The position numbers and the translations under genes were made by a program. From a virus: a stretch of DNA of 28,479 nucleotides. Positions 869 to 2,903 of this stretch are shown here, piece after piece (position 1 is the stretch's first letter; each line of letters starts with the position of its first letter). Below the pieces are notes generated by a model. The model did not search any database, was not told the DNA's origin, and saw only the letters and a program-made list of their open reading frames with translations. The stretch covers positions 1 to 28,479 of IMG/VR virus record IMGVR_UViG_3300010316_000033, one strand, 5' to 3'.

Positions 869-2088
869 TGTGTAGCCTCATTGTATGGTTTCAATACGTT
901 TTCATAGATTGATGTGGCTAATGCAGCCATCATCTTAGGCGCAACTGCCCTACCGATTCTTTCGACTTGCTGATCAAATGTGCCAGTGAGTTGGTAATCT
1001 TCTGGTAGCGACATTATACGCTTTAGTTCTTTGATTGTCAACTTACGATTTTCAGCATAGTGAAAAACGCCAGACAACCCACGCTTCTGACCTTGCTGTG
1101 TGAGTGTTGGGCAAGGAAGATGTGGCGCAGGTCTGATCATGTTGAAACAAGATGCTTTCGGGTTCCAATCGCGGAACTCTTTGTCACTCGGTTTCATGTG
1201 TCGCTTTGGACGAAATGGAATGGGATCAAGAAACTTTTTCTGAAAAGAACCTTCATAGTAGTCTCTCAACATCTGTACTTCTTCTGGATCGTTTTCAATG
1301 TCTTCTATGGCCGACTCAAGACTAATGTGTGGGCCTAATCTATCTGGAAAAATAGAGTTCAAGTTTAAAAAATTCAGATTGATCTTTTCGCATACATCAT
1401 CACGAATACAGATGAAGATTGTTCGTTCTCGCGTTTGCGCAACACCATGATCCGCCGCGCTCATTACTTTGTATGTGACCTGATAACCAATCGCTTCAAA
1501 CGACTTGATAAACTCAAATAGCTTTGTTTTAGCTTCGCCAAATGTGATACCTTTCACATTCTCAGCAACAATAACTTTGGGCTTGATACCCTTTGCAATA
1601 CGAATAAACTCAAGAAATAAGTCTTCAATTGCTTCAACTTCTTTACCATCAGAGTAGGTCTTGATACCCCCTTTAGTCTTCAGTTCGCCCTCTTGAATGA
1701 AGTTACCTTCATCATCAATGTAGGACTTTCGCGTATCTTCTACGTATCCAGCCCAACCTTTTTCGCGCTTACCAGCAACAGAGAAAGCGGAACACGGAGG
1801 CGACCCGTCTAGTATGTCAAGTTCACCTTCTTTGATACCAGCCATCTTCAGAAAGTCTTCGCTCTTGTACTTTTTGATGTCGTCTACTAGAACTGGTGTG
1901 TCTGGGTAGTTCTGTTTATAAGACGCGATTGCTTCTTCAACAAACTCGTTGACCAACAGAATGTTACCACCAGCAAGACGGTAGCCTGTTGAACTACCAC
2001 CTCCGCCAGCAAAGCAACTGATCACATTAAACTTTTTTTGTGCAGAAGCCTTCTTCACGTCTTCTACTGTATACGGTTCGTATTTCAT
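865..2088 (-). CDS. C5 cytosine DNA methyltransferase with Arg in motif X; candidate carboxymethyltransferase
   Basis: 407 aa with C5-methyltransferase motifs in order: motif I FAGGGGSS (res. 26-33), motif IV GSPPCS with catalytic Cys99 (PCS where PCQ is usual), motif VI ENV (176-178), motif VIII QTRER (218-222), a target-recognition region at about 230-340, motif IX-like LTIKELKRIMSLPEDY and motif X IGRAVAP (378-384). The usual motif X is GNAVPP or GNSV; here Arg380 replaces the Asn. In M.MpeI an engineered Asn-to-Lys change at this position is known to allow carboxy-SAM as donor. Together with the CmoA-like neighbour this makes a cytosine carboxymethyltransferase the best hypothesis, though ordinary methylation is not excluded. 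The start has GAGGTG upstream, overlapping the stop of the preceding gene; the end overlaps the CmoA-like start. No restriction endonuclease is nearby, so this is not an obvious restriction-modification pair. Confidence 0.93.
   Translation of the reverse strand: MKYEPYTVEDVKKASAQKKFNVISCFAGGGGSSTGYRLAGGNILLVNEFVEEAIASYKQNYPDTPVLVDDIKKYKSEDFLKMAGIKEGELDILDGSPPCSAFSVAGKREKGWAGYVEDTRKSYIDDEGNFIQEGELKTKGGIKTYSDGKEVEAIEDLFLEFIRIAKGIKPKVIVAENVKGITFGEAKTKLFEFIKSFEAIGYQVTYKVMSAADHGVAQTRERTIFICIRDDVCEKINLNFLNLNSIFPDRLGPHISLESAIEDIENDPEEVQMLRDYYEGSFQKKFLDPIPFRPKRHMKPSDKEFRDWNPKASCFNMIRPAPHLPCPTLTQQGQKRGLSGVFHYAENRKLTIKELKRIMSLPEDYQLTGTFDQQVERIGRAVAPKMMAALATSIYENVLKPYNEATQ
1013..1041 (-). promoter_or_regulatory. 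Full-consensus sigma70 promoter before the CmoA-like gene
   Basis: TTGACA (1041-1036), exactly 17 bases, then TATAAT (1018-1013), read on the minus strand. It lies inside the 3' part of the methyltransferase gene, over codons of the conserved LTIKELKRIMSLP segment, about 145 bases before the CmoA-like start. All 12 hexamer positions match the bacterial housekeeping consensus. Likely an early promoter read by host RNA polymerase. Confidence 0.7.
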
Positions 2089-2096
2089 TTAGCACC

Positions 2097-2903
2097 TCAA
2101 AATAGCTTTGGACCAACGTTCTGCCAGTCTCTTACAAGATCCATGACTCTTTCCCTATTATACGGGTTTATTTCACGATTGTCAAGTAGTTTTTCAAAAT
2201 AATCTGGTATACCTGCGATCAACTGCAAGTTCTCATGATTTCTTCTCTTCAATGCTCGTATCTCAGGAAATGCGTCATGTATGCAAGATTTTTGGTATGG
2301 TTTATTGAAGAAGTCCCAATCGTGTTGCATCATCCACTCAGCAACGCTTTTCTCAAGATAAGGTGCGACTAATCTCATACCATTTTCTTTCGCAAGCTGT
2401 TCTTGTTGTCTGACGCCAGCAGGATTAGGTGCACCAAAGTAATCGTTACGAAACTGATCAAATAGTTCTTTCGTATGCTTGAAGTGAATGTTGGCACGTT
2501 TAGACACACCATACCAACCATCAGCAGCAACCCCCGATAAGACTACCTTCTCTTTTATTTTAGGATAAACGTACATGAATGGCCATGTACACTCAACTTG
2601 AGTTTTTTTCTTGCACTTGTAATGATTGATTAGCGTAAAAAAATCCTCTTCAATGTTGTCTACAGGAACATCAACTCCAACGAAGTCCCAACCAAAATGA
2701 TCGGCAGCGTCCTTTGCACCCAAACTATCACTAGTCTGTTGACCATTAATGTACATGCTGTAACCAGTAACTTTTTTACCGAGTCGCATAGCAGCGATGC
2801 CACATGTGATGCTGTCTGTTCCAGCAGACAAAAGAACAGCCACTTCATTCTCAGTGGCTTGCTCCTCTACAATGTCTACAATGATTTCATCAATGTTTTT
2901 CAT
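2097..2903 (-). CDS. Asparagine-synthetase-like ATP pyrophosphatase (PP-loop), no glutaminase domain
   Basis: 268 aa. A PP-loop at residues 26-31 (SAGTDS, usually SGGxDS) binds ATP so that a carboxylate can be activated as an acyl-adenylate. VVLSGVAADGWYG (120-132) corresponds to the LSGDGADELFGG region of AsnB, and LVAPYLEKSVAEW (178-190) to its RVPFLDHRLVE region. The N-terminal glutamine amidotransferase domain of AsnB is absent, so the nitrogen donor would be ammonia or another amine. The ATG lies inside the end of the DUF465-like gene (14-base overlap), and the stop is followed after eight bases by the methyltransferase start. In this operon I infer that it amidates a carboxylate on modified DNA, or on a precursor. 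Alternative: free asparagine or other amide synthesis in the infected cell. Fold call good, substrate unknown. Confidence 0.75.
   Translation of the reverse strand: MKNIDEIIVDIVEEQATENEVAVLLSAGTDSITCGIAAMRLGKKVTGYSMYINGQQTSDSLGAKDAADHFGWDFVGVDVPVDNIEEDFFTLINHYKCKKKTQVECTWPFMYVYPKIKEKVVLSGVAADGWYGVSKRANIHFKHTKELFDQFRNDYFGAPNPAGVRQQEQLAKENGMRLVAPYLEKSVAEWMMQHDWDFFNKPYQKSCIHDAFPEIRALKRRNHENLQLIAGIPDYFEKLLDNREINPYNRERVMDLVRDWQNVGPKLF
2157..2185 (-). promoter_or_regulatory. Full-consensus sigma70 promoter before the cytosine methyltransferase
   Basis: Minus strand TTGACA (2185-2180), 17-base spacer, TATAAT (2162-2157). It sits inside the 3' end of the AsnB-like gene, about 70 bases before the methyltransferase ATG. 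It is identical in both hexamers and in spacing to the promoter at 1013-1041, which suggests selection for strong early expression of both genes. Confidence 0.7.

Follow-up and report, generated by a model that had tools for sequence, protein, structure and literature searches.

We conclude that three adjoining genes in the viral sequence analyzed here (IMG/VR record IMGVR_UViG_3300010316_000033, positions 1 to 28,479; hereafter the window) very probably constitute, in a T4-like phage, a CmoA-CmoX-CmoY cassette for DNA hypermodification, one that carboxymethylates cytosine. The idea of carboxymethylation is not new, having been published in December 2025 for Synechococcus phage S-B43. In that phage CmoX, a homolog of the C5 cytosine methyltransferases (C5-MTases), transfers a carboxymethyl group from carboxy-SAM (Cx-SAM) to DNA cytosine, the phage's CmoA supplies the carboxy-SAM, and CmoY, a homolog of asparagine synthetase, then ligates glycine (Yang et al., Nat Commun, December 2025; PMC12783734). 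The window locus is a further example of this described system. Every enzymatic step, along with protection against HhaI, has been demonstrated by others for S-B43 (PMC12783734); for the window itself, we report genes, residue matches and a comparative correlation. We infer that these particular proteins act as those of S-B43 do, and the same holds for which amine is attached and which sequence is targeted. What the published account lacks, and the present comparison provides, is the observation that changes of the motif X residue and changes in the presence of cmoA have repeatedly coincided on the tree of these enzymes.

The cmoX gene and its motif X arginine

A sequence-only reading had drawn attention to an Arg codon in motif X of a C5-MTase, at a position where Asn is usual, and the codon is indeed real: CCT on the plus strand and AGG on the minus strand, it specifies Arg380 of an intact ORF, in the context E-R-I-G-R-A-V-A-P, with motif X reading G-R-A-V (Table 1). 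The other C5-MTase motifs are intact as well (FAGGGGSSTGY for motif I; SPPC for motif IV, with Cys99 lying within GSPPCSAF; ENV for motif VI; QTRER for motif VIII), and the protein matches PF00145 (E = 2e-51). Its best sequence match in the PDB (E = 1e-110) is 8YF3, the crystal structure of SpCmoX with Cx-SAM, in which the place of HhaI Asn304 is taken by Arg350, a contact of the carboxymethyl group (PMC12783734). The same structure is the top Foldseek match of an AlphaFold2 model of the window enzyme (mean pLDDT 88.8), with a TM-score of 0.94 by target length and E = 2e-39, the second match standing at 1e-18. Identity to S-B43 CmoX is 54% over 363 aligned residues. All of the named Cx-SAM contacts are identical, F25, E47, F48, D69, C98 and R350 of SpCmoX corresponding to F26, E48, F49, D70, C99 and R380 in the window, and Arg380 is invariant in 20 diverse homologs.

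The earlier reading had taken Arg beside a cmoA-like gene as a sign of carboxy-SAM use and had cited a precedent in M.MpeI. Both points are upheld: the alignment of Arg380 with Arg350, the carboxymethyl contact in 8YF3, argues for Cx-SAM as the donor, and the precedent is the engineered N374K variant, in which a basic side chain at the equivalent place in motif X permits the use of Cx-SAM (PMC12783734). The two cases differ in that M.MpeI N374K is an engineered Lys in a CG methyltransferase, whereas the window has a natural Arg and its own Cx-SAM synthase gene. Wild-type SpCmoX accepts Cx-SAM only, and its R350N variant accepts neither donor (PMC12783734); there is therefore no reason to expect that an R380N swap would bring methylation back.

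The window enzyme departs from S-B43 CmoX in a 27-residue insertion in the catalytic loop, which is also present relative to S-CRM01 and other named phages, and which is modeled poorly (block pLDDT about 47-77, residues 101-140). Together with the target recognition region, this insertion could alter the specificity of CmoX. Depletion of the GC dinucleotide, the S-B43 target, was sought in the window as a hint of the target sequence, and none was found (observed/expected 1.0).

Table 1. Features of the predicted carboxymethylation locus in the window.
Feature	Position	Strand	Basis
cmoA, carboxy-SAM synthase (predicted), 231 aa	173..868	-	E. coli CmoA, E = 3e-30; 55% identity to CmoA of S-B43 and S-CRM01
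cmoX, DNA cytosine C5-carboxymethyltransferase (predicted), 407 aa	865..2088	-	8YF3 match; 54% identity to S-B43 CmoX
Arg380 codon AGG, predicted carboxy-SAM carboxylate binder	949..951	-	aligns with SpCmoX Arg350 (8YF3, PMC12783734)
27-residue catalytic-loop insertion, residues about 113-139	1672..1752	-	alignment against S-B43 CmoX
Catalytic Cys99 codon (SPPC, motif IV)	1792..1794	-	aligns with SpCmoX Cys98
Glu48 codon, cofactor ribose contact	1945..1947	-	aligns with SpCmoX Glu47
Shine-Dalgarno-like GAGGTG	2093..2098	-	sequence reading; 4 nt 5' of cmoX ATG, overlaps cmoY stop codon
cmoY-like amide ligase, 268 aa	2097..2903	-	45% identity to S-B43 CmoY; PF00733; fold matches 1MC1, 1CT9

The neighboring genes and the proposed pathway

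The CmoA-like gene that had been noted beside the MTase is likewise present, overlapping cmoX by 4 bp, and residues 2-231 of its product match E. coli CmoA (4GEK), the best characterized match. Against NCBIfam TIGR00740 the protein scores 129 bits (E = 2e-37), under the curated cutoff of 193 bits. The cutoff appears to have been set for the bacterial enzyme of the tRNA pathway, since all seven of the phage or prophage CmoA-like proteins scanned against the model score below it (46-175 bits). In E. coli CmoA, Arg199 is a contact for the carboxylate of Cx-SAM (PMC4482062). The corresponding position is Glu in window CmoA and also in the CmoA of S-B43, a proven Cx-SAM synthase, and both proteins have an Arg four residues after this Glu, a feature shared by 101 of the 140 sequences in the alignment. 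Because the proven enzyme has Glu too, Arg199 is, as judged from these alignments, no defining feature of phage CmoA, and our claim here is one of relationship to the S-B43 protein.

A third gene, absent from the earlier finding, encodes a CmoY-like ligase with the synthetase domain of asparagine synthetase (PF00733) and no glutaminase domain. A sequence search found no relative of it in the PDB, but a fold search with its model (pLDDT 92.5) matched beta-lactam synthetase (1MC1) and asparagine synthetase B (AsnB, 1CT9) over the synthetase domain. The ligase keeps all columns that are at least 90% conserved among 83 related ligases; its ATP loop reads SAGTDS versus the commoner SGGxDS, a variant found in six of the 83 aligned sequences, the window's included. 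With such a ligase beside cmoX, the carboxymethyl group would be a handle, not an end product.

All three ORFs are open and tightly packed in the order cmoY-cmoX-cmoA, with cmoY ending 8 bp before cmoX. The locus resembles that of S-B43 in the clustering of the three genes, in a cofactor pocket that includes the motif X Arg, and in protein identity (CmoX 54%, CmoA 55%, CmoY 45%). It differs in gene order (cmoA-cmoY-cmoX in S-B43), in the catalytic-loop insertion of CmoX and the SAGTDS loop of CmoY, and in the phage that carries it, which belongs to a different T4-like lineage. The window encodes a portal, tail sheath, terminase, late sigma factor, gp46-like nuclease subunit and major head protein of T4-like type, and its capsid protein is nearest to that of Sinorhizobium phage phiN3 (68%). 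Synechococcus phage S-CRM01 also has cmoA adjoining an Arg-type cmoX (CmoX 51% and CmoA 55% identical to those of the window), but no CmoY relative was found within 11 kb around its cmoX.

In the pathway that we propose, CmoA would convert SAM and prephenate into carboxy-SAM. CmoX would then flip the cytosine out, Cys99 would attack C6, and the carboxymethyl group would pass to C5, with Arg380, in place of the usual motif X Asn, pairing with the carboxylate and so fixing the donor. The modified product would shield the phage DNA against host nucleases.

Motif X residue and cmoA across C5-MTases

The sequence-only reading had treated motif X Asn as nearly universal and had suggested a test of correlation between Arg and cmoA. 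Asn is the usual residue, but not every MTase outside the carboxymethylating set has it: G-M-S-V characterizes a large clade of mostly bacterial enzymes, Leu occurs in single members, and Gly and Asp are also found. The correlation itself is strong. Viral contigs were searched with queries of differing breadth, phage records were added, and dereplication at 80% identity left 138 C5-MTases, mostly viral; CmoA genes were identified by means of a profile made from the CmoA sequences of seven phages' loci and counted as nearby when within 6.5 kb. CmoA lies near 72 of the 81 Arg enzymes and near none of the 57 others (54 Asn, two Met and one Leu), an association with a Fisher p of about 1e-29, uncorrected for relatedness. 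On bacterial genome contigs, the corresponding figures are 25 of 28 for Arg and 0 of 52 for the remainder (Asn 13, Met 38, Leu 1; p about 9e-18, in a set that was not dereplicated). Among the bacterial CmoA matches, the weakest, at about 70 bits, are divergent; one of these, L239, matches the CmoA model in its N-terminal part only. These bacterial loci are likely prophages rather than a cellular system, the neighboring ORFs being phage-like, by ORF reading, in some of the loci inspected.

Nine of the 81 Arg enzymes have no cmoA nearby; two of these belong to complete genomes that carry cmoA at another place, and the rest to incomplete fragments, those searched containing no cmoA. Moraxella phage Mcat8 was considered as a case of Arg without cmoA and rejected, the next gene being a divergent CmoA. 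Two long ORFs are consistent with gene fusions, one of 775 aa with CmoA and CmoX matches (L275:5059-7383) and one of 713 aa with CmoY and CmoX matches (L240:5002-7140). We also note a tandem pair of Arg-type C5-MTases adjoining cmoA (L080:13-2371) and, at the SPPC catalytic Cys in the CmoX of Erwinia and Yersinia jumbo phages (L047:3001-5130 and L048:3001-5079), an intein-like insertion, about 330 aa long, which matches Intein_splicing and Hint_2, both under Pfam cutoffs.

Joint changes of residue and cmoA on the tree

In a phylogeny of 103 MTases, six changes of the Arg label are required, at least five of which are forced by well-supported branches. Five independent pairs of enzymes differ in Arg, and cmoA differs in the same way in 4.7 of them on average and in the opposite way in none; the sign test on these independent pairs is borderline (median p about 0.06). 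Two Arg MTases with adjacent CmoA (L191:2547-4411 and L204:5397-7168) are nested in an ordinary Asn clade and apparently reflect an independent gain. Two enzymes inside an Arg clade, L255 and L156, have Asn and lack a CmoA gene, an absence that is weak evidence given the shortness of the contigs (4-5 kb). The MTase of Melnitz-type Methylophilales phages also falls inside the Arg clade, with 43% identity to the window enzyme. Its motif X residue is Leu, however, the 141-kb genome has no cmoA, and the neighboring gene encodes a TET/JBP oxygenase; these phages probably methylate their cytosines and then oxidize them. In the Melnitz phage locus (L004:4010-6194) the TET/JBP-domain oxygenase gene follows the MTase, and three genes upstream there is one for a RimK-like ATP-grasp protein.

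A class of enzymes with Gly at motif X was found in Staphylococcus phages, SscSF1 and SPbeta-like, and in contigs L219-L222; their C5-MTase is about 20% identical to that of the window and has G-G-V-I. A CmoA gene is adjacent or nearby at all six Gly-type loci (L050:7461-8468, L051:6648-7646 and L219-L222), which represent few independent lineages, L051 and L220-L222 being very similar; in L051 and L222 the gene is firmly assigned as CmoA (TIGR00740, E = 2e-45). The closest cmoA-less relative found, ORF138 of Psychrobacillus phage Perkons, is 49% identical to the Gly-type MTase and has G-N-S-I, and no CmoA was found in the 137-kb Perkons genome. We regard the Gly-type MTases, from these sequence comparisons, as candidate Arg-free carboxymethyltransferases. 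Such a class, if real, would escape the published filter of SPPC plus Arg, which yielded 5,615 candidate CmoX sequences (PMC12783734). The Arg gain in L191 and L204 and the Arg-free Gly class of the Staphylococcus phages raise the proposal that C5-MTases have come to use carboxy-SAM on more than one occasion, cmoA and the motif X residue being gained or lost jointly, and we judge the chances of its being right to be about even. Alcaligenes phage Afa-NA1 presents another context for cmoA: its complete 78-kb genome has the gene, with a D12-class adenine methyltransferase 2.5 kb away (region L052:5917-10461) and no PF00145 C5-MTase, and a non-cytosine use of Cx-SAM is possible there.

Alternative interpretations

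Motif X varies in some C5-MTases (Met, Leu, Gly, Asp), and the window enzyme might be an ordinary 5-methylcytosine MTase that tolerates Arg, with the adjacent cmoA serving tRNA modification or some other purpose. The nine Arg enzymes without nearby cmoA could be read in this way, as could a related group (L026, L030 and L031) whose fragments, of 26-77 kb, contain cmoY but lack cmoA. However, two of the nine have cmoA elsewhere in complete genomes and the other fragments are incomplete, cmoA was found near none of the 54 Asn enzymes, and SpCmoX, whose pocket is the same, takes no donor but Cx-SAM (PMC12783734); we consider an ordinary methyltransferase very improbable. Still less credible, to the point of being nearly negligible, is the view that Arg380 has cost the enzyme its function and that the locus is degenerate or non-functional. 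An ordinary MTase would be expected to suffer from an Arg at this catalytic-site position, which is normally conserved, but here every other motif is intact, the three closely spaced genes have open reading frames, and the Arg does not vary across 20 diverse homologs.

The last step of the pathway invites a further alternative, compatible with carboxymethylation itself, in which the CmoY-like ligase adds something other than glycine, be it another amino acid, an amine or ammonia. The ligase is just 45% identical to S-B43 CmoY and has the variant ATP loop, and other ligase clusters with different predicted amines have been described (PMC12783734). Set against this are the retention of every position that is at least 90% conserved across the 83 related ligases and the absence of a glutaminase domain, which makes glutamine-derived ammonia unlikely. 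A non-glycine product is hence a real but rather unlikely outcome.

Implications

The interpretation that we favor is a cassette that carboxymethylates cytosine in the manner of S-B43. The raw sequence confirms a one-residue signature that separates carboxymethylating from ordinary methylating cytosine enzymes, and the window extends the known cases by a compact cassette of three genes in a further T4-like lineage. Cassettes of this kind place a carboxyl handle on DNA for amide coupling, and are of interest both for the evasion of host defenses by phages and for DNA labeling, while the wider comparison suggests that the choice of donor by cytosine-modifying enzymes can evolve repeatedly.
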